From positions 1-64,000 of the forward strand of contig NZ_JAKRVX010000006.1 in assembly GCF_023638035.1 (NCBI RefSeq): a stretch of DNA of 64,000 nt, given 5' to 3'. The position numbers and the translations under genes were made by a program. This document shows, piece by piece, positions 2,991 to 18,110 of the stretch. The notes beneath the pieces were generated by a model. It saw nothing but the letters and a program-made list of their open reading frames with translations. It was not told the DNA's origin and made no database searches. How positions within the stretch are numbered: the stretch's first letter is position 1; each line of letters begins with the position of its first letter. The DNA is from Natronocalculus amylovorans. Its GTDB lineage: Archaea; Halobacteriota; Halobacteria; Halobacteriales; Haloferacaceae.

Positions 2991-3250
2991 ATATCGTCTA
3001 TTTCAAAAGCGATCGGTCCAGGTGAGAGAACCTGCGGTTTGCATGCTGCGTTGTAAATTCTGTACCTATGAACCCAGATTTCCTTGCGGCTGGCCGGCTA
3101 TTTTTATGATATTTATTCAGGTAATATTATATTTATACCTAAATATTACCTCGCAAATAACGCTCTCTCAGCGATCGCTTTGCACTCATTTGTGTTCTCT
3201 AATACCTGCTCAGCGCTGGCTGTTTGCAGACTCGCGCTGACAGTGGTGTG
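2928..3250. other. Non-coding, AT-rich stretch upstream of the exported-protein cluster
   Basis: I see no convincing gene here; the open frames lack family resemblance and an acidic composition. It contains the usp promoter region and an AT-rich block near 3105-3160 with a perfect inverted repeat, listed separately. Confidence 0.5.
3119..3151. repeat. Perfect 10-bp inverted repeat, possible operator
   Basis: AGGTAATATT (3119-3128) is matched exactly by AATATTACCT (3142-3151) around a 13-base AT-only centre. It sits about 100 bases before the TATA box of the first cluster gene. A dimeric regulator, perhaps one of the four DUF7344 proteins nearby, could bind it; that link is inference. Confidence 0.4.
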
Positions 3251-3259
3251 TATATAAAA
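3251..3259 (+). promoter_or_regulatory. TATA box for the first exported-protein operon
   Basis: TATATAAAA, the clearest archaeal TATA box in the window. A start site would be expected near 3280, giving a leader of roughly 110 bases before the ATG at 3389. That is unusually long for a haloarchaeal mRNA and contains several hairpins: CCCA-ACG-TGGG near 3264-3274, CGGCC-TGACT-GGCCG at 3293-3307, and the tRNA-like element. Confidence 0.7.
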
Positions 3260-3316
3260 GACCCCCAACGTGGGTTCTCAAATCGAGGATATCGGCCTGA
3301 CTGGCCGTTTGATCTA

Positions 3317-3373
3317 CCCACAGGGGACTGCACAACGGTTCGACTCCATTGGTGGGCATCCTGCATACGCAGG
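3317..3373 (+). ncRNA. tRNA-like leader element, copy 1
   Basis: CCCAC (3317-3321) can pair with GTGGG (3352-3356), enclosing a T-arm-like hairpin AACGG-TTCGACT-CCATT (3334-3350, one mismatch). The 7-base loop has the tRNA T-loop sequence. A second perfect hairpin CCTGC-ATAC-GCAGG (3360-3373) follows, ending 15 bases before the ATG. Two further copies precede two other subunit genes. No D-arm or anticodon arm is present, so this is not a tRNA gene. Confidence 0.6.
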
Positions 3374-3388
3374 CGAGTATATACACAT

Positions 3389-4825
3389 ATGACAGACGAT
3401 AACTCCAAAACCGGACTCTCCCGCCGAAAAATGCTCGGCGGTATTGGAATGATCGGCGTTGCATCAGCTGGTGCAGGGCTCGGAACAACCGCATACTTCA
3501 GCGATCGGACAAGCTTTAGGGATAATCACCTCGAAGCGGGTCAACTCGAACTCTTTGTTGATTTCAAATACTACGAGGATCAAGGCATTAGAGGAATACA
3601 AGAAGGCGACGGAACTGTTGCTGGACACAAATTAGTCGAAGTCAGCGAGGATTACTATGATGTCGAGTACAAAGACCCCGTCTCGATCGATCTTGATGAC
3701 CTCAAACCAGGTGATTTCGGAAAATACAAACTGTGTTTCAACATCCACGATAACCCTGCATACCTCTGGCTATGTGGGCATCTTACTGAGAACAACCTAG
3801 GGAAGCTCAACCGCCCAAAAAAGAAGGCGATCGCCGAGCTGAAAGACGAGTATGATGAGGACTGGTACAAAGACCTCGACACTGAATCTGAGGAAATGGA
3901 CGGGTTCCTTGGGGATGCGCTTGATGTACTTGTCTACTATTGTGACGAAGATGAACATGGTGAAGATTTCGATCAGCAGGTGACAAAAGAGGATGTCGAA
4001 GACGATCTTATTGCACACGGAAGCCTCAAAGAAGTGCTTGCTGACCTGAAGAACGGATTCCCACTAGATGGTAATGGCGAGCTCGATAGCGGTGTCGAAA
4101 ACCGCAACTGCTACGATGGAACTGAATACACCGCAGCAGACAACGGAGAGAAAGAAAACCCGTGTGTCTGCTTCCAGTGGTCCCTCTCAACAGAGGTTGG
4201 CAACGAAATCCAGAACGATAGCGTCAAATTCGATCTTGACTTCTTTGCTGAGCAGTGCCGCCACAACGACGGTGTGACGAATCCATGCATTACGTCTGAA
4301 GTCGTGGATGGATTCGGAAAAAATGTATTGGAAGCCGAGAAACTCTGGTTCTCAAAAGCAAGGAACGGTGGCAGTAATACCTTTGAACTCATTGTTGGGG
4401 ATACAGACCAAGATTCTGATACCTCCGGATTCGATTACTCTAGCTCAGCGTTTACCGGAGAGTTCACGCTGACTTACGATGCAGCGTCCGGGCAGGCGGA
4501 AATGACCCTTGCAAACGGCGATGAGCAGACTGTAGAGTACCCTGTTACGACCTCTGACGGTAACGCAATTTCAATTGTTACAAGAGGGAACCAGTCAGAT
4601 CATCTCTCCCGTGTGACGAACATCCGGCTGAACAGTTCCGCTCCGAGCGGTCCGGATGCGGTTGAGAACGAGGGAAGTGGAGAAACATCCCTAAACCTGA
4701 CAGATATCGACACATCCGTCAGTTGGACTCTTACCGGAGAGATAGAGTTTGAGGGTCTAGATAACGACCCAAGCGCGTCTGATGAAAATCCTGCAGTGTA
4801 TGTCGATGTTCTAGACGCCCCATAA
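3389..4825 (+). CDS. SipW-class (TasA-like) exported structural protein with C-terminal extension
   Basis: 478 aa from the ATG after the leader; an earlier in-frame start would include leader RNA. The N-terminus has a twin-arginine stretch (LSRRKMLGG), a hydrophobic core and the SipW-type site GTTAYFSD, so the mature protein probably starts near F37. The scaffold common to the cluster follows: AGQLEL, LKPGD with DNPAYLWLCG, a SLKEVLADL helix, and AEQCRHND at 287-294. Residues 295-478 form an extra beta-rich domain shared with the 14702-16021 protein. The many cysteines suggest disulfides. By analogy with TasA and archaeal bundling pili it is an extracellular fibre or matrix subunit; that role is inferred. 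It is the first gene of a two-gene operon. Confidence 0.75.
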   Translation: MTDDNSKTGLSRRKMLGGIGMIGVASAGAGLGTTAYFSDRTSFRDNHLEAGQLELFVDFKYYEDQGIRGIQEGDGTVAGHKLVEVSEDYYDVEYKDPVSIDLDDLKPGDFGKYKLCFNIHDNPAYLWLCGHLTENNLGKLNRPKKKAIAELKDEYDEDWYKDLDTESEEMDGFLGDALDVLVYYCDEDEHGEDFDQQVTKEDVEDDLIAHGSLKEVLADLKNGFPLDGNGELDSGVENRNCYDGTEYTAADNGEKENPCVCFQWSLSTEVGNEIQNDSVKFDLDFFAEQCRHNDGVTNPCITSEVVDGFGKNVLEAEKLWFSKARNGGSNTFELIVGDTDQDSDTSGFDYSSSAFTGEFTLTYDAASGQAEMTLANGDEQTVEYPVTTSDGNAISIVTRGNQSDHLSRVTNIRLNSSAPSGPDAVENEGSGETSLNLTDIDTSVSWTLTGEIEFEGLDNDPSASDENPAVYVDVLDAP

Positions 4826-4843
4826 TCACTGATAATCTTTTTC

Positions 4844-4901
4844 ACCCATTTTGGTGTGGATCGACGGTTCGAATCCGTCAGTGGGTTTCCCCGCTTGGGG
4901 A
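4844..4901 (+). ncRNA. tRNA-like leader element, copy 2
   Basis: This is the best copy. ACCCATT (4844-4850) pairs over seven positions (one G-U) with AGTGGGT (4880-4886). Between them are a 12-base spacer and a perfect T-arm GACGG-TTCGAAT-CCGTC (4863-4879). A second hairpin TCCCC-GCTT-GGGGA (4888-4901) ends eight bases before the ATG. The element fills nearly the whole 84-base gap between two cluster genes, so it acts inside an operon transcript. Confidence 0.65.
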
Positions 4902-4909
4902 CGATTACA

Positions 4910-6247
4910 ATGACAGAAGAAAATACACAAACCTCCCGCTTCTCGCGCCGACAGATGCTTGGCGCACTCGGGACCGTTGGTGTCGTCTCTGCTGGTGCAG
5001 GCTACGGTACGTCTGCGTTCCTCAGCGATCGAACCACATTTGAAAATAACCACATCACCGCCGGACAGCTCGAACTCAGCGTCACGTGGCAACAACTCTA
5101 CCACGGTGCAAGTACCGATCGACGACCAGACGACTATGGATCAGTTGGCCGGCCGTTCGTGAATGCATTCCCGGATGAAAACGAAGACGGGCTCCAGTCG
5201 TTTGGCGATCGACAGTATGTTGATCTTGACGAGTACGACGATGACGATGACGGGCGAGAACAAGCAGCGATCGATGGTGAAAACCTAGAGTTCTCCTGTG
5301 AGGAGGTACTCAACGAACTTGGCGATCCAAATGAGATCGTAGACGGAGAGCCGTTGATCAACCTCGACGATGTGAAACCAGGCGATCGAGGCGAAATTAC
5401 ATTTGGTGCCAAACTCTGTGACAATCCTGGATATATCTGGCTTGGCGGGCACGTAGATGACGAGTTTGACGGCTCTGCACTCGCAGACGCAATTCAAGCC
5501 CGCGTCTGGTACGACGACGGTAATAACGTCTATGAACCAGGTGAACCAGTCATCGCAACTGGGTCACTGCAAGAAGTTCTCGATCAACTCAGAGAGGGCG
5601 AGCTCTTAACGCCGGAACCAGGATCTGTTGAACCGCCGGAAAACGGTAATGGAGTGACACTAACTGAGGATGATTGTGAGGTCGTAGATGGAAACCCACG
5701 ATGTATTTCGCTTGGACTACAGACTGCCCTTGAGATTGATTCGAGCGAGTTAGAAGGATTGGCAGAAGGCGACTCAGAAACATTCGATACTGACTTCGGC
5801 GGTACAGTAACAATCACGGTAACTGCGGTCTCTGAAGATGATGTTAGAGAGTTTGACTTCGAATTAAATGGATTTGAAGTAGATACGGTCATTATAAAAG
5901 GTGGGCCGAATGCAAATGTCTGCAGTCAAGAAGATGGTGACGGAGAAACGCTCACAGCAAGCAGCGGTGACGGTCTCGGAGCACCATTCCGAACTGACGA
6001 ACAGCGGTTCGGTGTCAGCGCGATTCGTTTCTGTTTCGACGGTGAACCAACGGTTGTTGACCCCGAAGACCCTGGCGATGAGGTCTGTTTTGAGCCGTCG
6101 AATACACAGTTCCTTGGCTTCGAATGGGAACTTCCAGCCGATGTCGGCAATGATATTCAAAACGAGAGCGTCAAGTTCGATCTAAAATTCTACGGCGAAC
6201 AGTGCAGACACAATCCAGAACCTGCAACCCCATTCGGAAACAACTGA
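4910..6247 (+). CDS. SipW-class (TasA-like) exported structural protein with inserted IKGG domain
   Basis: 445 aa from the ATG right after the leader element. Signal region: FSRRQMLGA, then GTSAFLSD; the mature start is probably at FLSD. It has a very acidic stretch (DEYDDDDDGRE), VKPGD with CDNPGYIWLGGH, VWYDDGNNVYEPGEPV and a SLQEVLDQL helix. Around residues 240-385 an extra domain is inserted with VDTVIIKGGPNANVC and AIRFCF. That motif set also occurs as a C-terminal add-on in the proteins at 8212 and 12077. The chain ends shortly after GEQCRHN (429-435) with TPFGNN. Probably a surface fibre or matrix subunit, co-transcribed with the gene at 3389. Confidence 0.75.
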   Translation: MTEENTQTSRFSRRQMLGALGTVGVVSAGAGYGTSAFLSDRTTFENNHITAGQLELSVTWQQLYHGASTDRRPDDYGSVGRPFVNAFPDENEDGLQSFGDRQYVDLDEYDDDDDGREQAAIDGENLEFSCEEVLNELGDPNEIVDGEPLINLDDVKPGDRGEITFGAKLCDNPGYIWLGGHVDDEFDGSALADAIQARVWYDDGNNVYEPGEPVIATGSLQEVLDQLREGELLTPEPGSVEPPENGNGVTLTEDDCEVVDGNPRCISLGLQTALEIDSSELEGLAEGDSETFDTDFGGTVTITVTAVSEDDVREFDFELNGFEVDTVIIKGGPNANVCSQEDGDGETLTASSGDGLGAPFRTDEQRFGVSAIRFCFDGEPTVVDPEDPGDEVCFEPSNTQFLGFEWELPADVGNDIQNESVKFDLKFYGEQCRHNPEPATPFGNN

Positions 6248-6261
6248 TCCGAAGTTACAGA

Positions 6262-6270
6262 TTTATTTTT
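6262..6270 (+). terminator. T-rich terminator candidate
   Basis: TTTATTTTT about 15 bases after the stop of the 445-aa protein, between two convergent genes. T-rich tracts after a stop are the usual archaeal termination signal. Confidence 0.45.
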
Positions 6271-6380
6271 CAAAGCGACGATAAGCCCAGAGCGAACAGC
6301 GATGGCTGTGTGCTCCGAATTAAAACGGAACAGGCCGAGTGTGCAAGATAACTAATTGGAAACTAACACTTTTACCTCTG

Positions 6381-6905
6381 TTATCCAAACAGCTGCAGCA
6401 GCCGCCATCTGGAGGTCCATAGCTGATAGCCGACGGAGATCGCAAATACACCCAAAACAAGGCTTGCCCACAGGATCGGATCGATCGCGCCGACAAGTGG
6501 CAATCCAATGAGCGAAAAGATGACGAGCATCTGTCCACTGATACCAAGCAGTTGGTAGTACTCACCCCACGTGACGCCATATTTTGTGACGACGTCCATG
6601 TATCGATCGACCTGTTTAGCGCCGTCGCGAAGTTCGATCTCTCGGGAATCGATATGGTATTTGATGATCCCAAGCTCATCGAGTTTCGGAAGGTGGGTCT
6701 GATGGAGGGAGGCATACACGCTATCGCGTGTTGATTTGGGGACCGGGCGGGTAGCGGTTTCTACCTCAGCGATCGCGGTTGCAAGTTCGGCGACGGTGAT
6801 CCGACCGGAAGTTGTCGTCAAGACACGAAGTGTCTCCCATCGTCGTTCATTTGCAAGCACATCGTAGATCTCGATCTCGCTGAGATGTGGTTTCTGGCTA
6901 AGCAT
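6381..6905 (-). CDS. DUF7344-type winged-helix regulator with two membrane segments
   Basis: 174 aa. The N-terminal half is a winged helix: VLANERRWETLRVL, then TVAELATAIAEVE, then DSVYASLHQTHLPKLDELGIIKYH, the usual haloarchaeal DUF7344 pattern. The C-terminal part (about 115-165) contains two hydrophobic segments, so the DNA-binding domain is probably tethered to the inner face of the membrane. It is convergent with the first cluster operon and divergent from the 292-aa gene at 7143. Close relative of the regulator at 19508 (same LANERR subtype). Probably a local regulator of the exported-protein genes (inference). Confidence 0.8.
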   Translation of the reverse strand: MLSQKPHLSEIEIYDVLANERRWETLRVLTTTSGRITVAELATAIAEVETATRPVPKSTRDSVYASLHQTHLPKLDELGIIKYHIDSREIELRDGAKQVDRYMDVVTKYGVTWGEYYQLLGISGQMLVIFSLIGLPLVGAIDPILWASLVLGVFAISVGYQLWTSRWRLLQLFG

Positions 6906-7142
6906 CTGTTCGTACCAATATGGTCGATTATCCCACGGTTATGTATGCACAGGCTTCAGTTATCAAAAAGCCAGAAGAAAATTCAGTAGCAGCCCGTTTC
7001 ATCGCGACGGGCGACACTAACGAGACCTCAGAAGCGGCTTATTAGTCGTTTGGCCGAGTATGAGTCTCTATAGCTAACAGGCCTACAGACGTGTACGCAT
7101 CCATATGATCGGCCTCGATAGTGTGTCGATCGGGATGTGAAT

Positions 7143-8021
7143 ATGTCTCCACAACTACCAGAATTATCACGGCGGTCGATCCTCGTTGGTCTTGGTGCAG
7201 TCGGTGTCACGGCTGCTGGCGCTGGGCTCGGGACAACTGCCTTCCAACGAGATCAAGAATCGCTCGATGAAAGCCAGCTCGAAATGGGGCACGTGGACTT
7301 AGCAGTTCACTATGACTTCTTCCGTGACCAAGGACGACGGGATGAACCCGGTGGAATTGGTCGGAGCAATCGGGGAACAGGAACTGTTGGTATCTCAAGC
7401 GGTGGAACAGATGTCGAAGAAAAAGATGAGTCAGATGACGAGTATACTAAAAAACAGAAAGTCAAATACAATATCCGGGATATCAAGCCCGGCGATATGG
7501 GTTTTCTTCGGTTCTGCTTCTCAATCGTCGACAACGACTCGTACCTCTGGAGCTGTGGGGAGTTCACTGACGAAACAGTCGGAACCGGCGGCGGAAAGGC
7601 CGCAGACTACATTGATGCAACACTCTACTACTGCACAAAAGACACGCACAAGGACGACCCGATCGATCCGAAGTCAGTGCTCGTCTCTGGAACCCTTCGA
7701 GACGTATTTTCAGCTCTCAAACAGGGGATTCCACTTGATGCGGAGGCGCGAACCGCTGGCGGATCAGACTCAACGAAGCCCCCGCTTGCAAACAGGACCT
7801 GTTTCGACGGCTCAGAGACACACAAAGAGCCGAATGAAACCTGTTTGTGTCTCAAATGGGAGCTTCCAATCCGATCGCAGACTACTGATGAGGAAACACT
7901 GAACAACAACAAGGTACAGGGGGCCGGCGTCAAGTTCGGTCTCACATTTACCGCCGAACAGTGTAGATACAACGATGGAACAGAAAGTCCGTGCAGCGAT
8001 GCGGCATACGTGGGGAAATGA
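7143..8021 (+). CDS. SipW-class (TasA-like) exported structural protein
   Basis: 292 aa from ATG 7143; a GTG two codons earlier (7137) is an alternative start. The N-terminus has LSRRSILVG, a hydrophobic core and GTTAFQRDQES in place of the usual FSD, so the cleavage site is somewhat degenerate. The scaffold is clear: IKPGD followed by DNDSYLWSCGEF, TLYYCTKD, a TLRDVFSALKQG helix, CFDGSE, CLCLKWELP and AEQCRYND at 271-278 near the C-terminus. It ends shortly after ESPC without an added domain. It appears monocistronic: 237 bases from the divergent regulator and followed by a strong hairpin. No tRNA-like leader is seen. Confidence 0.75.
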   Translation: MSPQLPELSRRSILVGLGAVGVTAAGAGLGTTAFQRDQESLDESQLEMGHVDLAVHYDFFRDQGRRDEPGGIGRSNRGTGTVGISSGGTDVEEKDESDDEYTKKQKVKYNIRDIKPGDMGFLRFCFSIVDNDSYLWSCGEFTDETVGTGGGKAADYIDATLYYCTKDTHKDDPIDPKSVLVSGTLRDVFSALKQGIPLDAEARTAGGSDSTKPPLANRTCFDGSETHKEPNETCLCLKWELPIRSQTTDEETLNNNKVQGAGVKFGLTFTAEQCRYNDGTESPCSDAAYVGK

Positions 8022-8059
8022 TTCGTCTACGATTTCAGTCGATAGTAGGTGGACATTAT

Positions 8060-8101
8060 ACGGCTCGTATCGAGTCCATACTGAAACGGTACGAGAGCCG
8101 T
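8060..8101 (+). repeat. Long hairpin between two exported-protein genes
   Basis: ACGGCTCGTA (8060-8069) can pair with TACGAGAGCCGT (8090-8101), a 10-bp stem with a two-base bulge, 38 bases after the stop of the 292-aa gene. There is no T-run after it. It may end or stabilise the upstream mRNA, or form part of the leader of the next gene. Confidence 0.4.
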
Positions 8102-8211
8102 CTTCTACGTGATGGACGAAGCAAAGACGTTGCTCGTAATCCAGCAGCACTCACGCCTGTATCGTGTAGTGCGGCGATCGAACGCATAGTGTACCAAAGA
8201 GGTCCCCAATT

Positions 8212-9279
8212 ATGAGTAAGAACCCGAAGAAACTCCTTTCGCGACGAGAGCTCCTTGGCAGTACACTCGTTGTCGGCTCGATCGGTGCACTGAGTGGTGC
8301 ATCGACACAAGCGTACCTCCAATCGAATACCACCGTTTCTGGACACATGACCGTTGGTGGGGTTACGATCGAGACAAGCTGTGAAGATACTGATGATGAC
8401 AGCTGTACTGCCGGCCCTGATGGCGTTGAACTCTCACTGTCCGGCTTTTCACCCGGGGAAATGGTCTCTGAATCGTTTTCGGTTACTGCAACGGATAACC
8501 CACTATGGCTGTGGGTTCGTGCATGCCCGCCGGAGACAAGTTCGCTTGCAGGTGTCCTTGAGGCCACACTCGAGGTCGATCGTGCCTGTGATGGCGACGG
8601 TTCGATCGTTGAAACAGGCACACTCCAAGATGTGCTAGTTGCTATTTCGGAAGGTACCCTGATCGAACCGTGTCTTGACAGCGACGAAACCGTCTGTATA
8701 ACGCTCACGGTGACCCTTCCGGAAGATGTTGCGGACCCAGATCAGTATGAGAACACGGATGAGACGGTCACCTTCGATCTTCGAACCCAACAGTGCCGAC
8801 ACAACGACGATCCGGAAAATCCATTCGCTGATGTGGAGCCATGTCCTGAGCCATTAGTGTGTCCGGAGTGTACGCTTCTCGGAAAGCTTGAGACACCAGG
8901 AAACGATCGGCTTGAGCCAAATACGACGTATGAATTTGACGAACTTGAGAGCGAATTCGAGAGCGGCCGATATGTCATTGATGTTGGTACCGTTGAAAAC
9001 ACAACTGATGACGAAAACGGCGAGACAGTATGTGCATCGTTTGAGATCCGAGATACGGAAACTGATGAACTCCTTCCGATATGTGAATCTATTATCACAG
9101 GAGGGCCACCAGAAGAGGGAACCGAAAATGGCCAACCAAACGGTGAACGTCGAAATTCAATTTCGTTCGAACCACCAGTATTCACAACTGGACTCATCTG
9201 CACGAATGAACGTGAAAACCAAGGTGGACAACTCATCCAACCGGCGATAAGCAACGTCGAGTTCTTCGTCTGCATTTGA
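8212..9279 (+). CDS. SipW-class exported protein with C-terminal IKGG-type domain
   Basis: 355 aa. The start is supported by AGAGGT about ten bases upstream. Signal: LLSRRELLGS, a hydrophobic core, then STQAYLQSNTTVSG, a SipW-like site with L in place of F. Core signatures: FSPGEMVSESF with TDNPLWLWVRACPP, TLQDVLVAIS and QQCRHNDD at 193-200. The C-terminal 150 residues start with CPECTLLGKLE and contain CESIITGGPP and ISNVEFFVCI; the same domain follows the core in the 487-aa paralogue at 12077. About 15 cysteines is high for a haloarchaeon. Only nine bases separate it from the signal peptidase at 9289, so the pair is an operon and the peptidase is the likely processing enzyme. Confidence 0.75.
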   Translation: MSKNPKKLLSRRELLGSTLVVGSIGALSGASTQAYLQSNTTVSGHMTVGGVTIETSCEDTDDDSCTAGPDGVELSLSGFSPGEMVSESFSVTATDNPLWLWVRACPPETSSLAGVLEATLEVDRACDGDGSIVETGTLQDVLVAISEGTLIEPCLDSDETVCITLTVTLPEDVADPDQYENTDETVTFDLRTQQCRHNDDPENPFADVEPCPEPLVCPECTLLGKLETPGNDRLEPNTTYEFDELESEFESGRYVIDVGTVENTTDDENGETVCASFEIRDTETDELLPICESIITGGPPEEGTENGQPNGERRNSISFEPPVFTTGLICTNERENQGGQLIQPAISNVEFFVCI

Positions 9280-9288
9280 GTGATCCCA

Positions 9289-9837
9289 ATGAAAGAGCTA
9301 TCAACATACATGACACGACAGCTGGCTGTCCGAGTCGCAGTCGTTGTCATCCTTATTGCCGTCGTTGCACCGTTTGTAATCTATGCCGTCCCGCAGGTGA
9401 TTGGCGCAAATCACAGCTACGTGGTTTTGACTGCTAGTATGTCGCCGGCGATTGAAACTGGCGACGTTGTGATCGTGAGCGAAACCGACCCGGAAGCGGT
9501 CGAAGCAGGTGATGTGATCACCTATGTTCGTGGTGAGAATGAACCGCCAGTGACCCATCGGGTGGTCGAGATTACAACGGAAGATGGACAAACATCGTAT
9601 GTAACACAGGGTGATGCAAATAGCGACCCTGATAGCGGGGCGGTCCCCGCAGACAATCTCATCGGTGCCGTTGTGTTGGTTATTCCATGGATCGGGTACG
9701 TAATTCAATTCATTAACACCCCAACCGGATTTGCGTTGTTCGTACTCATACCGATCGGGCTACTCGTGATCTCTGAGGCGTGGACACTGCTTGCGCCTGC
9801 ATTACGGGATACACAGACAGAGCCAGAAGAAGGCTGA
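9289..9837 (+). CDS. SipW-type signal peptidase I
   Basis: 182 aa from ATG 9289; the frame opens at a GTG directly after the previous stop (9280), which is a possible alternative. Archaeal/ER-type signal peptidase: N-terminal membrane segment (about 12-33), catalytic serine in TASMSP (S50), histidine in VTHRVVE (H90) in place of the bacterial lysine, acidic residues in QGDANSDPD, and a C-terminal membrane segment. This Ser-His class includes SipW, which processes TasA and CalY. The active site faces the outside of the membrane. It is coupled to the exported protein at 8212 and probably processes that protein and its paralogues. Confidence 0.88.
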   Translation: MKELSTYMTRQLAVRVAVVVILIAVVAPFVIYAVPQVIGANHSYVVLTASMSPAIETGDVVIVSETDPEAVEAGDVITYVRGENEPPVTHRVVEITTEDGQTSYVTQGDANSDPDSGAVPADNLIGAVVLVIPWIGYVIQFINTPTGFALFVLIPIGLLVISEAWTLLAPALRDTQTEPEEG

Positions 9838-9864
9838 TTGGGTTATATACGTGACACAACGGAA

Positions 9865-10422
9865 CTATAACCGCCGTTTCTGATTTCCAACTGTATGGAT
9901 CGTTGCAACGGACAGCAGTGTCAAAGATAAGACTCCAAGAATTAGGAGTGGTGAAATGAGCGTAAACGGATACGCACCGGCCCAAACCGCAACAGTAAGC
10001 GCAAAAAATACGGCTCCGAGCCCTAAATAACATTCGCTCCACGGAATTTCGTCTTTTCTGACCGGTTCAAGATAGAGATCAAGATTATCGACTTCTTTTG
10101 TGAGCTTGATTATTCCACGATCGCGGTCATAATTAATAAACCCTGCAGCGGCGAGCTTTGGGAGATGAGACTGATATAGTGAGGTGTAGACACGTTTGCG
10201 GTCTTGATATGAGAGCTCTTCTACTGAAATATCGTTTTCCCATGCTGCGACCTGTGTCGCGACCTCTCGAATCGTTGCTGTCTCTTCTACTGTTTTAAGA
10301 TATGAGATTGTAAATCGACGGCGTTGGTTACCCAGGGTCTGGAAAACAGTGTCTAGAGAGTGATCTATGTTCTCTGCCTCGGTTGGAGCCTGAGTTCTTG
10401 ATTGAGAGATACTTTGTGACAT
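9865..10422 (-). CDS. DUF7344-type winged-helix regulator with two membrane segments
   Basis: 185 aa from ATG 10422 (MSQSISQSRT); an in-frame TTG at 10437 is a weaker alternative. Winged helix with TLGNQRRRFTISYL, VATQVAAWEND and DRKRVYTSLYQSHLPKLAAAGFINYDRDRG, followed by two hydrophobic segments (about 130-180). Same subtype as the regulator at 20190 (AAWEN, SLxQSHLPKL). It sits between the two signal-peptidase operons: convergent with the one ending at 9837 and last on the minus strand after the one ending at 10700. Its promoter carries a perfect inverted repeat, suggesting regulation by a dimeric protein, possibly itself. Confidence 0.82.
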   Translation of the reverse strand: MSQSISQSRTQAPTEAENIDHSLDTVFQTLGNQRRRFTISYLKTVEETATIREVATQVAAWENDISVEELSYQDRKRVYTSLYQSHLPKLAAAGFINYDRDRGIIKLTKEVDNLDLYLEPVRKDEIPWSECYLGLGAVFFALTVAVWAGAYPFTLISPLLILGVLSLTLLSVATIHTVGNQKRRL

Positions 10423-10430
10423 ATACTGGG

Positions 10431-10482
10431 TTACCAAATAACAACCTGAATTTTGTTTTTACAGATTTATACTTTTTGGTAA
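10431..10482 (-). promoter_or_regulatory. Promoter with TTACCAAA/TTTGGTAA inverted repeat
   Basis: On the minus strand a TATAAA-like box lies near 10464-10470. TTACCAAA is directly upstream of it (10475-10482) and its exact inverse TTTGGTAA lies near the expected start site (10431-10438). The arms therefore bracket the core promoter of the 185-aa regulator, the classic layout of a repressor site in archaea. Confidence 0.45.
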
Positions 10483-10610
10483 AAAACGAATTGTCACCTA
10501 AATAGAATACCGATGTATATAGGATTCATTGAGATTTTCGTGTCTCTGAATGTTCATATATCCGCATCTAGAGCGACTGAAATGACTGATTACTATTTAG
10601 CATATTTTAG

Positions 10611-10643
10611 AGCCTATACTATAAATATTTGATATATTAGGCT
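10611..10643. repeat. Hairpin in the 277-base gap after the second signal-peptidase operon
   Basis: AGCCTA (10611-10616) and TAGGCT (10638-10643) are inverse copies around a very AT-rich centre, 57 bases after the stop of the 128-aa gene (minus strand). Possibly a termination or RNA-stability structure. The gap itself (10423-10699) holds no gene I can support. Confidence 0.3.
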
Positions 10644-10699
10644 TTGTCAGGTGATTTTGTAACTATACTACCTTGCTATCTCTGTCAGTATACCCTGCG

Positions 10700-11086
10700 T
10701 TACGAGACTACGTTATGAGAGATGTAATTTGACGTCTGTTCGCCGTTTGGCTCTTGAGGGTCTTCGGTTGCCTCCTCAGGTGTTGGTGTAGTCTCTGGTG
10801 GCTCTGGAGTCGTTTCTTCAGGTGCTGGTGTAGTCTCCGGTGGCTTTGGAGTCGTTTCTTCAGGTGTTGGTGTAGTCTCCGGTGGCTCTGGAGTCGTTTC
10901 TTCAGGTGCTGGTGTAGTCTCCGGTGGCTCTGGAGTGATCTCCTCAAAAGACTCTGCAGTCTTGAACGTCCCTTCGACAGTTTGCTCTGCGGTGAATAAC
11001 GCGACAGTATATCCACCACCAAATGCGATCGCAAAGATTGCTACTGTGAGCGCGGCAAGAATAACTGCTCGACGAATATTATTCAT
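10700..11086 (-). CDS. Small membrane-anchored or secreted protein with Pro/Glu/Thr repeats
   Basis: 128 aa. The start overlaps the previous stop (ATGAATAA), so translation is coupled to the signal peptidase gene. One N-terminal hydrophobic segment (about 8-31) is followed by ALFTAEQTVEGTF, which resembles a SipW-class cleavage region. Residues 51-106 are four copies of a 14-residue unit (TPEPPETTPAPEET with small changes), then a short tail. The composition suggests an extended, non-globular extracellular or cell-wall-spanning linker. The threonines could be glycosylated. No family is recognised. Its place at the end of the subunit-peptidase operon suggests an anchor or assembly partner (inference). 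Confidence 0.65.
   Translation of the reverse strand: MNNIRRAVILAALTVAIFAIAFGGGYTVALFTAEQTVEGTFKTAESFEEITPEPPETTPAPEETTPEPPETTPTPEETTPKPPETTPAPEETTPEPPETTPTPEEATEDPQEPNGEQTSNYISHNVVS
10769..10936 (-). repeat. Four tandem 42-bp repeats inside the small protein gene
   Basis: Four in-frame 42-base units encode the 14-residue Pro/Glu/Thr repeat. The copies are nearly identical at the DNA level and differ mainly in A/T at position 10 and one E/K change, alternating in type, which suggests recent duplication of a pair of units. Copy number is likely to vary between strains. Confidence 0.8.
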
Positions 11087-12080
11087 TTTTGCCTCCGTGG
11101 CGCTTCTCTGTCGATCGTTCCTCGATCGGATCTGCCGAAACAAACGCCGAATCCTCGAGACCAACTGATTCAGTGTCAGTGTGTACTGACTGTGTATCCG
11201 GCTCAACGCCCCCATCGGTCACTCTCTGTGGTACCGCGTGCTTGCGACGGGTCGTGATGATGGTACCGATACCCATCAGTAACAACAGTAGTGCAGCAAC
11301 AGCGACACTAGTAGTGAGCCCCGTTCGGAGCACCGTCAGCAGATACATGCTGTAGACGACAAAGGGAACCAGTACGATTGTTGCACCAAGCACCATGTCT
11401 GATGAGATGCTCACAGTACCATCACCATCATTTGTGGGTGCTCTCTCGGAACCATCACTACCGGCTGCTGGTACTACGCCGATCGCAGTTTGTGCTTCAC
11501 TAGGTGTCGGTTGTGCCGTAGTTGGATCAGTAACACCGGCTGTTTGCTCCTCATCTTCAAAAGTCGACTCAGGTGCGTGGCGAAGTTTCTTTGCGAGCGT
11601 CCAAAGTTCAGACAGAATTAACAGCCCAAATGGCACGATAACAAGTGCAATGAAGCCATACGTGGAGTTTCCAAACTGGATAATGTAGCCAATATATGGA
11701 ATCGTAAATATGACAGTTCCAAGGACAGTATCGCCAAGAACGAACCCTGCATCTACGGCACTATTAGCATCGCCTTGCGTCTGGAATGCTGGCTCCCCAC
11801 TGATTGCCACAACATCCACCACACGGTGTGTTACAGGAACCTCCGATGTTCCTCGCATGAATGTTATCACGTCACCTTCAACAATCGTCTCAGGTCCTCG
11901 GTCGGCAACGATAACGACGTCACCGGGAGCGATCGCCGGGGTCATGCTGGCAGTGAGGACGACGAAGCTATGATCCGCCCCGATAGTCCAAGGTGCTGCA
12001 TACACAACAAATGGTGCGACAACAGCGATCAACAGCAGTACAGCTACTATGTTTGCAATTTTTTTAATTTGTATGTTCAT
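11079..12080 (-). CDS. SipW-type signal peptidase I with long C-terminal extension
   Basis: 333 aa. The start overlaps the stop of the preceding subunit gene by four bases (12077-12080). Residues 1-165 match the peptidase at 9289: N-terminal membrane segment, catalytic serine in TASMTP (S45), histidine in VTHRVVD (H85), QGDANSAVD, and a membrane segment. It differs in a C-terminal extension: a low-complexity Thr/Pro/Ala linker (about 175-225), two more membrane segments (about 230-275) and a hydrophilic tail. The extension may recruit a partner or substrate. The Ser-His active site is complete. Likely processing enzyme for this second set of exported proteins. Confidence 0.87.
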   Translation of the reverse strand: MNIQIKKIANIVAVLLLIAVVAPFVVYAAPWTIGADHSFVVLTASMTPAIAPGDVVIVADRGPETIVEGDVITFMRGTSEVPVTHRVVDVVAISGEPAFQTQGDANSAVDAGFVLGDTVLGTVIFTIPYIGYIIQFGNSTYGFIALVIVPFGLLILSELWTLAKKLRHAPESTFEDEEQTAGVTDPTTAQPTPSEAQTAIGVVPAAGSDGSERAPTNDGDGTVSISSDMVLGATIVLVPFVVYSMYLLTVLRTGLTTSVAVAALLLLLMGIGTIITTRRKHAVPQRVTDGGVEPDTQSVHTDTESVGLEDSAFVSADPIEERSTEKRHGGKNE

Positions 12081-13540
12081 TGTAAATCCTCGCTACACAC
12101 CAATTTTCCACCTTTGGCTATTGCTTCAGTGACGGTTAGTTGGTAGTCGGTCTCCGCATTTTCAAGCGCAAACGTTCTCGAGCAGCTCGTATGGATTGAA
12201 CCGATCTGTATTTTTGCTCCATTGGACTGGACAGAAACATCGAAGTTTGGATTTCCGCTTTCTGGGAAGTCGATACTGAATGCATCCGACGATGAGATGG
12301 TTGCTGATTCGATCGTCGTAACCTGTCCGCCACTCGAGTTTTGCGGCTCAAAAACGATTGTGACGTCGTCTGTGGGGCCAGTGTACTCAAACGTTGCAGT
12401 CGAGATCCGTTCACTGTTGATAGCGCCCTCTCTACATGGTACACATCCAGGTTCCGCTGGCTCCTCCGGTTCCGTTACTCCATCATCCCCATTGGAATAC
12501 TCTTTGCAGACGAACACCTCGATGTAACTGATCCCAGATAGATTTCCACCCGAGTTCACAGAGGAGTATAATAGCTCGTTAGTGCTACGTGATGGTGGAT
12601 CAATACGGTATGATTCTACACCATCACCGCCTTGCTGTGTTGGGCGTCCACCACCCTTGATATCGACCCCGCACAGGGAAGGTGTTGGGTGTCCATTAGT
12701 CGAGTCGATCGTGAATTGAACGGCAACAGTCTCCGTGTCATTGTCTTTCTGCTCCACATCTTCGATGATGAGTTTATACGAGCTGTTGTCAAGTTCGAGC
12801 GTGTCACCAATCTCGATCGGCATCATTCCATCACTAATGTCGACTTTCCCAAGCGATAGCGTGCAGTTTTCCGGTGGACAGCTCTTGATCGGTGCACATC
12901 GGTCTATAATCGCGAATGGGTTTGAAGCCGTTTGCGCTGAGTTATGACGGCACTGCTCTGCAGCAAATAACAGCCGTAACTGTGTTGACTGATCCGCAAG
13001 CGATTCGCTGGTTCCCGGTGGGAGTCGTAGGCGAAGTTCAATCTCCGCAGACTGTGCTGGGTCAAGACAACCGGTCTCCGTCTGTGATTCAATCGCTAAT
13101 CCGTTGATTGCAGTAGTTCGGAGGTCGCTCAGTGTTTTTGTCCCGTCTCCACCATAGAGCGATCGTGTGTACCCATCAATGCGAGAACGAAGCTCTACGC
13201 GGAGCGCCTGTGCAAGCACATCAGCCGGCTCTGGACAATCTGTTGCAACCCACAGCCGCCCCGGGTTGCTTCCGACAGTGACTGTGAGCGTTTTTGCTAT
13301 GCGATCGCCGGGCTGGATATCGTCGATCGTAAACGAAACGATCCCATTGTCTTCCGTACATCCAGTACAACCGATGTCGATCGAAAGATCACCAGCGACA
13401 ACTGCGCCACTAAAGGACTCTGTGGCCGACAAGTATGCTTGTGTCCGGGCACCGGAGAGGCTCCCAACCGCACCAAGTGCACCCATACCAACAACGCCTG
13501 CAAGAAGCTGTCGTCGACTGACCGGAACACCATTACTCAT
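12077..13540 (-). CDS. SipW-class exported protein with two added C-terminal domains
   Basis: 487 aa from ATG 13540, which overlaps the previous stop (ATGAGTAA); the open frame continues upstream but only into the previous gene. Signal: VSRRQLLAG, a hydrophobic core, then RTQAYLSATESFSG. Core: IQPGDRIAKTL with NPGRLWVATDCPEP and AEQCRHN at 194-200, the same position as in the 355-aa paralogue at 8212. Next comes CPPENCTLSLGKV with CGVDIKGGG and ISYIEVFVC, as in that paralogue. A further region (about 390-487) with CVPCREG and a beta-rich composition is unique. Probably a large surface subunit or adhesin processed by the peptidase encoded next to it. Confidence 0.72.
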   Translation of the reverse strand: MSNGVPVSRRQLLAGVVGMGALGAVGSLSGARTQAYLSATESFSGAVVAGDLSIDIGCTGCTEDNGIVSFTIDDIQPGDRIAKTLTVTVGSNPGRLWVATDCPEPADVLAQALRVELRSRIDGYTRSLYGGDGTKTLSDLRTTAINGLAIESQTETGCLDPAQSAEIELRLRLPPGTSESLADQSTQLRLLFAAEQCRHNSAQTASNPFAIIDRCAPIKSCPPENCTLSLGKVDISDGMMPIEIGDTLELDNSSYKLIIEDVEQKDNDTETVAVQFTIDSTNGHPTPSLCGVDIKGGGRPTQQGGDGVESYRIDPPSRSTNELLYSSVNSGGNLSGISYIEVFVCKEYSNGDDGVTEPEEPAEPGCVPCREGAINSERISTATFEYTGPTDDVTIVFEPQNSSGGQVTTIESATISSSDAFSIDFPESGNPNFDVSVQSNGAKIQIGSIHTSCSRTFALENAETDYQLTVTEAIAKGGKLVCSEDLQ

Positions 13541-14321
13541 TTCCAACCCCATGTGTGAATGGGTTATCTGTGAAGTCACACGGAACTGCAACGAAGTCAA
13601 GTGCAAAGCCAACACCAGTACCCTGTAATGTGTTGGGAAGGCCGTTCGGAAGCTCCCATGCAAACCCAAGACAGTACCGATCGTCGGGATCAAGACAGCT
13701 GTTGTCAGTCATCCCGGGGTTAATCTGGAAGCCATCTTGTAAAGAAACCCCACCGATGATATCTTGACGGGTGTGTTCAAGCGTTCCAGTGACGATCGGA
13801 TCGCCTGTCGAACCGTTCTCAGCACCAAGACAGCTCCCAATCCCGAGTGGTCCATGATCGTACCACAGCTCAATCGCAACTGTATCAGCAAGCATGTTTT
13901 CGCCGGCTGCGAGCCGCTGTCGCATCCAAACCGTTGCCGGCTCGGAGTCTGGATCAAGTGATAACCCGACGCTAAGCGTCCCAGAGTCTCCCGGTAGTGC
14001 GTTGTCGATCTCGATTACTGGTCCTGCGACATTGGTTGGATCGCTCACATAGGCATCAGTTTCAGTTTCTGCCCACTCAGCATCCTCGGTAAGCGGGAGC
14101 CCGGAAACGAATTCGTCCCCTGCCCCACGGTTGTAGGTACTATACCAACCAACAACAAGATCAATTCCATTCGAAGACGCATACGTGTAGTTTGTGTATG
14201 GCCGATCGCTTGCAGAGACCGTCCACCGACCGCGGACAAGTCCCATACTTCCAACGCCGATTACACTGGCGCTTGCGAGCAGTTCACGTCGTTTGAGAGT
14301 TGGTATTGAATCTGATTTCAT
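13533..14321 (-). CDS. Divergent member of the exported-protein family, no SipW site
   Basis: 262 aa from ATG 14321, chosen because GGAGG lies just upstream; an in-frame ATG at 14345 is weaker. It has LKRRELLAS and a hydrophobic segment but lacks the T-x-A-F-S-D cleavage region (it reads RWTVSASDRPYTN). The rest follows the scaffold: ALPGDSGTLSV with ATVWMRQRL, IELWYDHGPLG, CLDPDDRYCLGFAWELP and, in place of AEQCRHN, VAVPCDFTDNPF near the C-terminus. It is first in a four-gene operon with overlapping stops and starts (subunit, subunit, peptidase, small repeat protein). It may use another signal peptidase or stay anchored. Confidence 0.68.
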   Translation of the reverse strand: MKSDSIPTLKRRELLASASVIGVGSMGLVRGRWTVSASDRPYTNYTYASSNGIDLVVGWYSTYNRGAGDEFVSGLPLTEDAEWAETETDAYVSDPTNVAGPVIEIDNALPGDSGTLSVGLSLDPDSEPATVWMRQRLAAGENMLADTVAIELWYDHGPLGIGSCLGAENGSTGDPIVTGTLEHTRQDIIGGVSLQDGFQINPGMTDNSCLDPDDRYCLGFAWELPNGLPNTLQGTGVGFALDFVAVPCDFTDNPFTHGVGNE

Positions 14322-14701
14322 ACGCCCACCTCCGGGACCGTCCATTCATTAGATAGGAGACACCGGTTGAGTAGGACATTATCTAACGGAGGGGATATGT
14401 ATGGGTTCAGTACCGTCACAATAGCCAGTGGGAGGCTTTGGCATCCACCGCCAATCGGAAGCGGCATGCAGTTCATACCAACACCGGAAGGGCGTACCTG
14501 TAGAGAGCGTACTAACTGCGCCCCTCCTTTGGTTTTTGCTGTGATTGGCTGCAGTTCGTGATTGAGTTGCTGTGTCGACGATCGTTGCTGATTGTGGATC
14601 ATATCTTCCTCCAGATACTCACTGCTGGAATTGAACCATGCGATCGGCCACCTCTCTTTGGAGCCCAAATGAGTGTAAAAATACAGTACCGAATGTAGTA
14701 G
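14322..14701. other. Gap of 380 bases with leader and a 7-bp inverted repeat
   Basis: No gene is supported; an open frame on the minus strand (14318-14668) has no family features. TTAGATA (14349-14355) and TATCTAA (14380-14386) are inverse copies and could form a hairpin in the leader of the 262-aa gene. GGAGG follows closely before its start. The promoter of the four-gene operon should be here; I see no strong TATA box. Confidence 0.45.
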
Positions 14702-16021
14702 TTAGACGTCGACTCTAAATCCGAGACCCTCACGACCAGGTTGTGTATCCCACGTCATCGTCACCATTCCGGAGATGACATCTCCCTCTGCGAAGGTCAC
14801 ATCGTTAAGAACGATCTGCTGTTGACCGCCAACATTCCCATCAACAAACACCGAATTCGATCCTGATGGGACTGTACCATTCAGTTGGATATCGGAGACA
14901 AGAATACTGGCATCATTTGTTGAGGCTTTTGCCATGACAGTAACGCCATCAGCAACTGGCGTTGGCGCATTTTCAACCATCACCTCAGAACCACCGATGT
15001 TCCATTTTGCATCGCCATCGTCGATCGTTAGTTCAAACGGAACGGCTTCGCCGTTTGGCCAGCTGAAATTCTCGTTTCCAGTGTGTAGCGGGGTATCACT
15101 CGCGTCACGGATGTCCAACTCTCGGTTTGCTGCTCCGCCACCATCACCGTAGACCCCACGTGCATGCCAGATGCTTCCGTCCAGATCAGGGAATCCGGAT
15201 GCTTCTGTCGTCTCGACGCATGGGTTTGTTAGACCGTCATTGTGCCGCTCTTGCTCGGCGTAGAACGAGAAGTCAAATGTCACAGAGTCCGTCTGGATCT
15301 CATTACCAACCGATGTCGGGACTTCCCACTCGAAACAGACACAGGTCTCTGCAGTGTTCGGCTCGCCATCGACGAACGGTTCATCAACACCCTCAAACGC
15401 GGCTCTATTCGCGATGATGCCATCATCGTTCCCATCACCGTAGAGTGGAACACCTTTGCTGAGAGCATCCATCACGGATCTAAGCGATCCAGCGATGATC
15501 TGCTCACCAACTGTGCCATCCGTATCACAGTATGACATCGTGATCTCCATTGCATCTGCAAGTTGGCCATCATCTGGAACCTCACCGAACTGCTCCATGA
15601 GCGCGGTCTCTTCTGGTCCTGTCGTCCCGTTCTGTTCGTTTAATGTTAGCTCACCACACATCCACATGTATGCTGGGTTGAATACGATCGAAAAGCAGAA
15701 TTTTCCTTCACCGGAGTCGCCAGGCTTGAGATCCTCGACTTCGATTCGGAGCGGTTCCCCCTCCGGTTCGCCACCGACCACATTTCCATTGATGAACGTT
15801 CCTGATGGCGTCGAGTAGCTTCCAAAGATCCCTTGATCTTCTTCGTAATCAACGTGGACGAACAGGTCGAGTTCACCAGCGGTGAGTGTGTTTCCGTCGA
15901 AGCTCTCTTCATCGCTGAAGAATGCGGTTGTTCCGAGTCCTGCACCCGCTGTTGCTAGTCCGATCACACCGATACCGCCGATCACATTTCGCCGCGAAAG
16001 TTTGATATTGTTGTCTGTCAT
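14702..16021 (-). CDS. SipW-class (TasA-like) exported structural protein with C-terminal extension
   Basis: 439 aa. N-terminus: LSRRNVIGG, a hydrophobic core, GTTAFFSDEESFDGN; mature start near F36. Core: LKPGDSGEGKF with NPAYMWMCGEL, MSYCDTD, SLRSVMDALSKG, TCVCFEWEVPTSVGNEIQTDSV and AEQERHNDG at 255-263. The cysteine of the family motif AEQCRHND is glutamate here, the only such change in the set. Residues 270-439 form an extra domain shared with the 478-aa protein at 3389 (NGxx strings, SGSNSV, LTGxx-type strands), ending GLGFRVDV. It has its own tRNA-like leader (16030-16085) but no clear TATA box, so it is probably read from the upstream genes. Confidence 0.75.
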   Translation of the reverse strand: MTDNNIKLSRRNVIGGIGVIGLATAGAGLGTTAFFSDEESFDGNTLTAGELDLFVHVDYEEDQGIFGSYSTPSGTFINGNVVGGEPEGEPLRIEVEDLKPGDSGEGKFCFSIVFNPAYMWMCGELTLNEQNGTTGPEETALMEQFGEVPDDGQLADAMEITMSYCDTDGTVGEQIIAGSLRSVMDALSKGVPLYGDGNDDGIIANRAAFEGVDEPFVDGEPNTAETCVCFEWEVPTSVGNEIQTDSVTFDFSFYAEQERHNDGLTNPCVETTEASGFPDLDGSIWHARGVYGDGGGAANRELDIRDASDTPLHTGNENFSWPNGEAVPFELTIDDGDAKWNIGGSEVMVENAPTPVADGVTVMAKASTNDASILVSDIQLNGTVPSGSNSVFVDGNVGGQQQIVLNDVTFAEGDVISGMVTMTWDTQPGREGLGFRVDV

Positions 16022-16029
16022 GATTTTGA

Positions 16030-16085
16030 TCCCGAGATGGGAAAACTCACCCGTGGAGTCGAACCACTGCTCTCGATCGGAGAGT
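16030..16085 (-). ncRNA. tRNA-like leader element, copy 3
   Basis: Minus strand: ACTCTCC (16085-16079) can pair at 6 of 7 positions with GGTGAGT (16051-16045), enclosing AGTGG-TTCGACT-CCACG (4-bp core stem). It is followed by a hairpin TCCC-ATCTC-GGGA (16042-16030) eight bases before the ATG. Stem sequences differ from copies 1 and 2 but pairing is mostly kept, for example GTGAG with CTC against GTGGG with CCC, which supports a real RNA structure. Confidence 0.55.
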
Positions 16086-16157
16086 TGAGCCCCACACAGC
16101 GTGTGTGCTCAGAATGAGTGTGAATAACGTGACTAGGGAACGATTGTGGCGAGAAAT

Positions 16158-18068
16158 CTAGTTTCCAGCCTCCGCGAATGGGTTGTTCGAGCCGTCGTTA
16201 TGACGGCATTGTTCTGCGTAGAACGAGATATCAAACTCGACGGAGTCTGACTGGACTTCATTCTTCACATCAGTTGGGAGCCACCATTCGAAGCCGAGAC
16301 AGCGGGTCAAGAATGGCGGGTAACAGTCACGCTCGTCAGTGAATTCGTTTGCGTCAAGTGGAACGCCTTCTGCAAGCACTTCGAGCACTTCCCTGAGTGT
16401 TCCTTCTGCAATTACCTGTTCACCGAGGACGACCTGTGCAATCTGCGAGAAAATGATTGACAGATCAACACTCGCTGGTGCTTCGTAATACAGTTTGACA
16501 CCAGTTTCATCGTCTGATTCGAACTCACCAACCCCTTCTGATGCAATACTAAGCAGTGTCGTGCGTGCAAGTCCTGTTTGTGAGACTTGTTCTAATCCGA
16601 AACCGATCGACACGATCGTGATGTCTGTGTCATCTTTAATTTCATCTGCAACAGCCACTGTATCAGCTGCCGCAGTAGTATTGTTGACATCAGACATGGC
16701 GATGAGTTTGTCATTGCGTGACCAGTCTTGCCATGTACTGTAGCTTGGGAATCCAGATTCACCGCTTGAATCTGCATCTGCCTCATCGTTATCGTCGACA
16801 TTTTCAGACTCATACGACCACGTTGGAGCACCATCCCCAAGCACAATCATAATCTGGCGGCGGCCATTTACTTGCCCATCTTCGAGCATTTGCCGACCAC
16901 CGTAGAGCCCTGCACCAATATTCGTACCAGAGATACCGAATGGCGTGTCGTCAGGGTCAAATGGTGCTGAGCTTCCATCGTCTTGTCCAAACGTGTACGA
17001 CTCGATCGCGTCGATGTCATTATTAAGCGTCGTTAGGTCGCTTGCATCGGTGAGCGGGAATTCCAACTCATCGATGCCACCGAATTTGACCAGTCCAAGT
17101 CGATCGTCCTCGCCAGTACCATCAATATCGGTTCTGAGGTTTGCAGCAAGCTGCTTGATCGCCTCTCTGGCTTCGAAGATACGGGAACCCTCATCTTGGC
17201 TATCGAGACTCCGATCCCCTGGATTCTCTAAATCATACGTCATCGAGCCCGACACATCAAGCACAAGCGCTATATCGATCGGTTTGCCATCTTCTCGCTC
17301 ATCAAAGATGTTGTTACAGTTTTCGTCGTACCAGACGCGAGCCTTGATTGCATCCGCAAGCTGTCCACCCCAGTCTCCATCAACGTTGTAGTAGAGTGCT
17401 TCACCATTTGCATTTTCCGCAAAGAACGTTGGATCGTCATCCGGAAGCGCTGAATCGTCTGCAGTGTTGGTCGCACCTAATTGATCAAGCCGTACTTGTT
17501 CTGGGTCGTTGACACCGTTGCTTGCGTTTCGACGAAGTCCACCGCCAAGCCAAACGTAGGCAGGGTTATCGAAGAGGTGCATACTGATTGTTGCTTCTCC
17601 GTAATCCCCCGGCTTGACATCGTGAAGTTGGAAGAGTGGGAAGCCAGCATCAGTGAGCTCATCGCGCTCGAAACCAGCGAACTCACCGTCATCATCAACA
17701 CCAACATTTGCGGATTCGACCCATGGTGTTGGATCAATCACATTGCCTCGCCGTGGAACCTGATCTAATACGTACGTGCCTGGATAGTCCGGTAGCTCTT
17801 TGACTTCAACATCAGGGTTGTACGGGCCATCAGGATCGTTGTAGATCCGCTGGAGCTCTTCAAGCCGGCCCGGGCCACCTTCGTAGGTAATTCGGTAGTC
17901 CATCTTGAGATCGACCTCACCAGCGGTGATCGTGTTTCCGTCAAAGCTCTCACTGTCGCTGAAGAACGCAGTCGTTCCGAGCCCTGCACCTGCTGAAGCG
18001 ATACCGACGGCACCAAGACCACCGAGAACCTTCCGCCGCGAAATTTTGAAATTATTATTTTTTGTCAT
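16158..18068 (-). CDS. SipW-class exported protein with an inserted von Willebrand A domain
   Basis: 636 aa. N-terminus: ISRRKVLGG, then GTTAFFSDSESFDGN (mature start near F36). The cluster scaffold is split. The first half has VKPGDYGEA with DNPAYVWLGGG (150-177) and ends at ARVWYDENCNN (243-253). The second resumes at EQVIAEGTLREVLEVLAEG (550-568) and runs to CLGFEWWLPTDVKNEV and AEQCRHNDG (618-626). Between them (about 262-548) sits a vWA domain with a complete metal site: DVSGS (D271, S273, S275), T382 and D412. Such domains usually bind ligands through a metal ion, so this may be a tip or adhesive subunit (inference). It is second in the minus-strand run starting at 19028, 42 bases after the previous gene. 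Confidence 0.8.
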   Translation of the reverse strand: MTKNNNFKISRRKVLGGLGAVGIASAGAGLGTTAFFSDSESFDGNTITAGEVDLKMDYRITYEGGPGRLEELQRIYNDPDGPYNPDVEVKELPDYPGTYVLDQVPRRGNVIDPTPWVESANVGVDDDGEFAGFERDELTDAGFPLFQLHDVKPGDYGEATISMHLFDNPAYVWLGGGLRRNASNGVNDPEQVRLDQLGATNTADDSALPDDDPTFFAENANGEALYYNVDGDWGGQLADAIKARVWYDENCNNIFDEREDGKPIDIALVLDVSGSMTYDLENPGDRSLDSQDEGSRIFEAREAIKQLAANLRTDIDGTGEDDRLGLVKFGGIDELEFPLTDASDLTTLNNDIDAIESYTFGQDDGSSAPFDPDDTPFGISGTNIGAGLYGGRQMLEDGQVNGRRQIMIVLGDGAPTWSYESENVDDNDEADADSSGESGFPSYSTWQDWSRNDKLIAMSDVNNTTAAADTVAVADEIKDDTDITIVSIGFGLEQVSQTGLARTTLLSIASEGVGEFESDDETGVKLYYEAPASVDLSIIFSQIAQVVLGEQVIAEGTLREVLEVLAEGVPLDANEFTDERDCYPPFLTRCLGFEWWLPTDVKNEVQSDSVEFDISFYAEQCRHNDGSNNPFAEAGN

Positions 18069-18110
18069 GTGTATGAATGTAAATTGGTAGTGATCTATAC
18101 TGACAGAAGC

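Follow-up and report, generated by a model that had tools for sequence, protein, structure and literature searches.

A tRNA-like element between haloarchaeal filament-subunit genes shares its layout with the 5S rRNA t-element and is probably cut by tRNase Z

To our knowledge, very few processing signals of archaeal mRNAs are known. A tRNA-like structure upstream of the 5S rRNA of Haloferax volcanii is processed by tRNase Z, and constructs flanked by such t-elements are processed by RNase P and tRNase Z (PMC4326828, PMC3296008). Here we analysed a stretch of 64,000 nucleotides from the haloarchaeon Natronocalculus amylovorans (hereafter, the window), in which elements of this kind accompany genes for putative filament subunits. 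The element has a conserved structure, a conserved position and a layout akin to that of the 5S t-element, and we consider it likely, judging from sequence comparison, that tRNase Z cuts the filament-subunit mRNAs at this tRNA-mimicking t-element between cistrons. What appears to be new is the setting of the t-element and the scale on which it occurs.

Positions 3389-19028 of the window carry genes for secreted subunits with SipW-type signal peptides, for two SipW/archaeal signal peptidases (9280-9837 and 11079-12080) and for DUF7344 proteins. Of the five main subunit proteins, three exceed the cut-off of NCBIfam TIGR04088 (SipW-dependent signal). The other two, at 18.7 and 18.2 bits versus a cut-off of 19, fall just short of it; they have SipW-type signal peptides and are encoded on the plus strand at 3389-4825 (with a choice-of-anchor W domain below cut-off) and 4910-6247, respectively. 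A further subunit, encoded on the minus strand at 14702-16021, combines a SipW-type signal peptide with a choice-of-anchor W domain. Pfam Peptidase_M73 (camelysin) came only near its cut-off in the subunit proteins. We refer to the subunits as SipW/TasA-like because of the signal peptide and the weak similarity; their function is unproven. Beside the filament genes, a DUF7344 protein (Pfam) is encoded at 6381-6905 on the minus strand, and the frames at 9865-10437, 19508-20026 and 20190-20831 resemble it by eye and may be its relatives.

The first copy of the element lies on the plus strand at 3316-3358, within the 5' leader of the gene that opens the plus-strand cluster. Its acceptor stem is formed by ACCCAC (3316-3321) and GTGGGC (3352-3357), the outermost A-C being a mismatch, and encloses a GG module and the T-arm AACGG-TTCGACT-CCATT (3334-3350); the hairpin CCTGC/GCAGG (3360-3373) follows, with the subunit ATG at 3389. 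Copy 2 (plus strand, 4844-4887) is located between two plus-strand subunit genes and has a seven-pair acceptor, ACCCATT/AGTGGGT, the T-arm GACGG-TTCGAAT-CCGTC (4863-4879) and the downstream hairpin TCCCC/GGGGA (4888-4901) ahead of the ATG at 4910. The covariance model R1 detected copies 1 and 2 with E = 5.5e-8 and 4.6e-8, respectively, values computed over the 3.26-Mb genome for two sequences that belong to the 30 on which R1 was trained. Copy 3 (16119-16044), between two minus-strand subunit genes, was detected by the model R2 with E = 0.0025 in a scan of 22 kb, and is assigned to the minus strand because its gene is on that strand. The lowest-energy unconstrained fold of 16124-16019 is a four-armed cloverleaf of -35.8 kcal/mol, composed of the acceptor ACTCAT (16119-16114)/GTGAGT, a long D-like arm (GAGC/GCTC, with an inner CACAC/GTGTG hairpin and GG in the loop), the third arm CTCTC/GAGAG and the T-arm GTGG/CCAC; the hairpin TCCC/GGGA (16030-16042) and the ATG at 16021 come next.

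The original prediction had described three leaders with a common layout of stem, T-arm and hairpin. Copies 1 and 2 are as it described them, and copy 3 is equally real, although its 5' strand had been misplaced: the pairing GCTCA/TGAGT yields -18.2 kcal/mol versus -35.8 kcal/mol for the cloverleaf, and the layout of related elements also speaks against it. Two features had been overlooked, namely, a conserved mini-hairpin with GG that separates the acceptor strand from the T-arm, and a probable weaker fourth copy on the minus strand at 14674-14616, downstream of the gene 14702-16021 and upstream of the gene 13533-14345. Copy 4 has the acceptor ACTCATT/AGTGAGT and the T-loop TTCAATT; because the model E-value is only 0.52 (22-kb scan), its identification depends mainly on position and pairing. 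A comparable element is found in locus L016 ahead of a gene similar to 13533-14345 (shared YT-YTYA stretch, by eye). The cuts are predicted to fall after 3358 in copy 1, after 4887 in copy 2 and, reading 5' to 3', after 16044 in copy 3.

Within the window, GGTTCGANTCC with at most one mismatch occurs 13 times versus 5.6 expected. Single-sequence folding gave z = -0.6 for copy 1, +0.25 for copy 4 and -2.7 for the extended copy 3, and this measure is uninformative for copies 1, 2 and 4. Folding energy is no discriminator here; it is the comparison of different species that carries the case.

Scanning with the subunit alignment yielded 71 loci from many haloarchaeal genera, and 98 elements, spread over 57 of the sources scanned, fitted a strict pattern. 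The training set of R1 comprised 30 short-type filament-gene elements, window copies 1 and 2 among them, and the model produced 132 matches across the window and the 71 loci. The best 121 of these are all on the coding strand; below them, only one match (E = 0.63) is antisense. The uniform gene orientation of these best 121 matches over 1.2 Mb, together with the covariation of the pairs, disfavours a DNA-level regulatory motif. In a covariance-model search of haloarchaeal genomes, matches with E ≤ 1e-3 were obtained in 161 of 292 sampled genomes and 56 of 77 genera, a tally that takes in 5S t-elements and a few doubtful matches. Several of the checked genomes with weak matches only have a 5S element, not a filament element, and the matches in L134, L135, L139 and L140 look spurious; the number of genomes with a filament-gene element is thus somewhat under 161. 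Among 247 sampled genomes of the phylum, the 21 with matches listed at E ≤ 1e-4 all fall within the same order. The elements of the window are real members of a widespread, undescribed RNA element. Rfam 15 has no family over the gathering threshold at the elements, and no description of the filament-gene element was found in the literature searched, which covered few subscription papers; the terms tRNA-like and tRNase Z are absent both from PMC8303175, on TPS, and from PMC4983044, on the TSS of H. volcanii, and the search on TafA/TafE fimbriae gave no relevant paper.

In viral contigs, a strict pattern had no exact match. A phage look-alike was observed in L214 (565-655), which corresponds to Halorubrum tailed phage 7 (KC292021.1, about 45055-44965, minus strand), where it occupies a 433-nt gap between genes 67 and 66. 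It consists of a CCGAC/GTCGG acceptor, the module GCTGGCGC, an ACGTA/TACGT arm and the T-arm GGCGG-TTCGACT-CCGCC, followed by a CCGCGG hairpin, and the T-arm sequence also matches HSTV-2, HRTV-2 and HRTV-11.

The original prediction had noted stem bases that vary with pairing mostly kept, and had named a lack of covariation in homologous loci as its refutation. Such covariation was looked for, and found, so that this check did not refute the prediction. Among the 30 filament elements alone, 6 of 12 pairs show two-sided changes; when 5S t-elements and divergent relatives were included, this held for 8 of 11 pairs, with 95% of cells paired. In the shuffle control of the combined set, none of 500 replicates reached any of the measures, and sliding the partner strand reduced pairing to 33-55%. 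The acceptor variants include CCCAC/GTGGG, CTCAC/GTGAG, CCTAT/GTAGG (L124), CCGAC/GTCGG (5S) and CCAAG/CTTGG (the 5S leader of the window's own genome). The acceptor stem is stacked on a T-arm, as in t-elements, an arrangement backed by the covariation. The T-loop is the canonical TTCRANY, except in one group of genes, where it diverges to TTCGCGA. Between the acceptor strand and the T-arm, the short elements carry an N-xGG-N'G module, in which N and N' are Watson-Crick partners in 46 of 75 distinct spacers versus 23.8 expected, a number reached in none of 10,000 shuffles. The GG of the module resembles G18-G19 of the tRNA D-loop, which touch the T-loop.

Divergent elements missed by the model were noted in L018, L023, L024 and L025 ahead of MNDD(K/T)IG genes (for example, L024 8435-8557). 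By eye, they have a TCCCG/CGGGA acceptor, a TTCGCGA T-loop and an inserted D-loop hairpin, and they keep the same C/G hairpin before the ATG.

A T-arm followed by the 3' strand of an acceptor looks like the 3' end of a tRNA, an appearance to be expected also of att duplications left behind by integration into tRNA 3' ends, or of degenerate tRNA genes. However, a matching acceptor 5' strand is present close upstream, the pairs covary, ARAGORN and Rfam call no tRNA at the elements (the only calls in the window being a tRNA-Leu and a tRNA-Thr elsewhere), and the elements keep their spacing to one gene family in many genera. We reject this origin, which is contradicted by covariation and spacing and strikes us as extremely improbable. 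Nor are the elements recognised as tRNA genes with an anticodon arm.

The reading of the elements as tRNA-like processing signals, put forward in the original prediction, gained support from the link to 5S rRNA. R1, trained without any 5S sequence, matches the 5S rRNA leader in several other haloarchaeal genomes (L118, L127, L130, L132 and L138 on the plus strand; L123, L128 and L129 on the minus strand), with the Rfam 5S match beginning one base past the end of the R1 match. In the window's own genome, the 5S leader has the same layout, CCAAG-ACTGGTGT...CGCAG-TTCGATT-CTGCG-ACTTGGA, then A, then TTAAGGCGG. Thus, a filament-only model recovers the 5S t-element, and the acceptor, the GG module and the T-loop are common to both; the covarying acceptor pairs and the presence in the same genome of both a 5S t-element and a tRNase Z gene (342.7 bits versus a curated cut-off of 293) add to this. 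A second, weaker RNase Z-like open frame was noted on the window's contig (G000:C17:83405-84151; 104.6 bits, below cut-off).

Hoelzle and colleagues reportedly described in 2012, as their abstract has it, many further tRNA-like elements in H. volcanii, those tested being uncut in vitro, and are said to have concluded that such elements are not a general processing signal in this species. Their result leaves the fixed-position elements of other genera unsettled, but it warns that the fold alone may not suffice. Furthermore, the elements are shorter than a tRNA and mostly devoid of an anticodon arm, and therefore efficient cleavage cannot be assumed.

As judged with a profile derived from the window proteins, 181 of 241 distinct matches precede a SipW/TasA-like gene; many of the others are located before genes for DUF1102/Taf-like or related secreted proteins, several before 5S rRNA, and some are doubtful. 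The large majority of the elements in the loci and the window (116 of 123) have an open frame of 150 codons or more upstream on the same strand, a test that overcalls upstream genes in high-GC DNA, and a TATA-like string was found upstream in only 3 of these 116; a TasA-like end motif is present in the upstream frame in 46 cases. An internal position is taken by 107 of the 112 subunit genes that have an element and by 127 of the 187 that lack one (Fisher p = 2e-9, treating loci as independent although the genomes are related), and about half of the internal subunit genes have no detected element. Copy 1 of the window is an exception, being located in the leader of a first gene with no same-strand gene upstream; inspection of the sequence revealed a TATA-like TATATAAAA at about 3250-3258, upstream of this copy.

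The median distance from the upstream stop codon to the element is 39 nt, a proximity that would suit an element whose main role is to give the subunit mRNA on its 5' side a tRNA-like cap at the 3' end, possibly CCA-tailed, with the downstream product of lesser importance. Such 3'-end protection is at odds with copy 1, which has no same-strand gene upstream, and leaves the tight coupling to the downstream ATG unexplained; we regard it as improbable as the main function. That coupling is evident from the distance between the acceptor 3' end and the start codon, which has a median of 24 nt (interquartile range 22.5-27.5, n = 181). Hairpins with 5 bp or more are present in this interval in 82% of the cases versus 24% in mononucleotide shuffles. 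When hairpins with 4 bp or more are considered, 174 in total, 137 begin 0-2 nt past the acceptor and 74 end 8 or 9 nt before the ATG. As cleavage by tRNase Z would fall after the discriminator base, the new 5' end would be at or beside the hairpin stem, so that the hairpin, which starts at the predicted cut, may protect it, as the original prediction proposed. An intrinsic terminator was rejected on inspection of the sequence: no T run follows the hairpin, and an A-rich leader and the ATG come next.

The 3' strand of the hairpin is a run of G residues between -14 and -8 relative to the ATG, the position expected of a hairpin that sequesters a Shine-Dalgarno (SD) sequence. Pairing of the leader with the anti-SD sequence, which we take to be the standard archaeal tail, has a median of -7.8 kcal/mol versus -3.5 kcal/mol in shuffles, although G-rich strands pair so easily. 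Because this strand is G-rich, SD-like and at SD distance, the hairpin may gate translation as well as, or instead of, protecting the 5' end. In the extreme form of this alternative, the hairpin sequesters the SD-like G-run, the tRNA-like fold is regulatory or contacts the ribosome, and cleavage is unneeded; the anti-SD pairing far above that of shuffles and the tightly constrained distance from element to ATG would both suit such a purely translational element. However, the first or isolated genes of the subunit family mostly lack the element (5 with, 60 without), as would be expected if the signal is intercistronic, the same fold is found ahead of the untranslated 5S rRNA, and the elements in L091, L095, L101 and L124 are located 10-20 nt from the ATG without a C/G hairpin. 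We consider translational control without cleavage unlikely, if less so than 3'-end protection. More broadly, elements at about 5-20 nt from the ATG and without the C/G hairpin were observed before other secreted-protein genes in L091, L095, L101, L119 and L124.

For processing by tRNase Z, we envisage the following course. The element is built like the 5S look-alike that tRNase Z cuts, and the messengers of the filament genes are therefore probably divided at it into separate pieces. A t-element placed in the gaps between SipW/TasA-like subunit cistrons, and sometimes in the leader of a first gene, would fold in the transcript as the top half of a tRNA, with an acceptor of 5-7 bp, a D-arm-like GG module, an optional third arm and a TTCRANY T-arm. 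tRNase Z, perhaps joined by RNase P on the 5' side, would recognise this fold and cut after the unpaired base past the acceptor stem, separating the subunit messages. The downstream mRNA would be left with a leader of about 23 nt that starts with a stable hairpin and displays, 8-14 nt ahead of the start codon, an SD-like strand rich in G, and the upstream mRNA would end in a tRNA-like structure. The separated messages could differ in stability and translation, which would set the amounts of the subunits; the cleavage, its position and this effect on expression are all predicted from sequence. A broader version, which we advance tentatively and would put at slightly worse than even, is that tRNA mimics, forming a dedicated class with a variable sequence and a conserved structure, provide general intercistronic punctuation of haloarchaeal filament-subunit operons through tRNase Z, with standard hairpin/SD leaders downstream and tRNA-like, possibly CCA-tailed 3' ends upstream, and in this way set subunit stoichiometry.

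Should the cut prove real, an enzyme of tRNA housekeeping would also divide mRNAs at a recognisable, widespread and structured signal, which would help to explain unequal expression from operons of filament parts. The lone 5S rRNA case would become one example of a general class that spans many haloarchaeal genera, represented by a testable RNA motif without an Rfam match, and the element could be put to use in halophiles as a natural means of cutting synthetic operons.

Compared with the 5S rRNA t-element of H. volcanii, the filament elements have the same acceptor stem and T-arm (TTCRANY) with a GG module between them, and the same place directly upstream of an RNA 5' end, which in their case is a predicted one; the same covariance model finds both. 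The filament elements differ in being located between protein-coding cistrons, often have longer second or third arms and are usually followed by a C/G hairpin and an ATG; their cleavage by tRNase Z is a prediction. In the tRNA punctuation of animal mitochondria, tRNA-processing nucleases separate the mRNAs of a polycistronic transcript. The logic is the same, but the signals there are functional tRNAs, whereas here they are mimics not called as tRNAs; if the punctuation reading is true, the haloarchaeal system would be an archaeal counterpart built without tRNAs. In RNAs of the MALAT1/mascRNA type, a tRNA-like fold processed by tRNA enzymes likewise creates RNA ends, but in a eukaryotic long non-coding RNA without an intercistronic role, in contrast to the intercistronic filament elements. 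Finally, stem-loops at the 5' end stabilise bacterial mRNAs with leaders of the ompA type. The downstream product of the filament elements would likewise carry a hairpin at its 5' end, with the difference that this end is predicted to arise from an endonucleolytic cut and that its stabilisation is putative.
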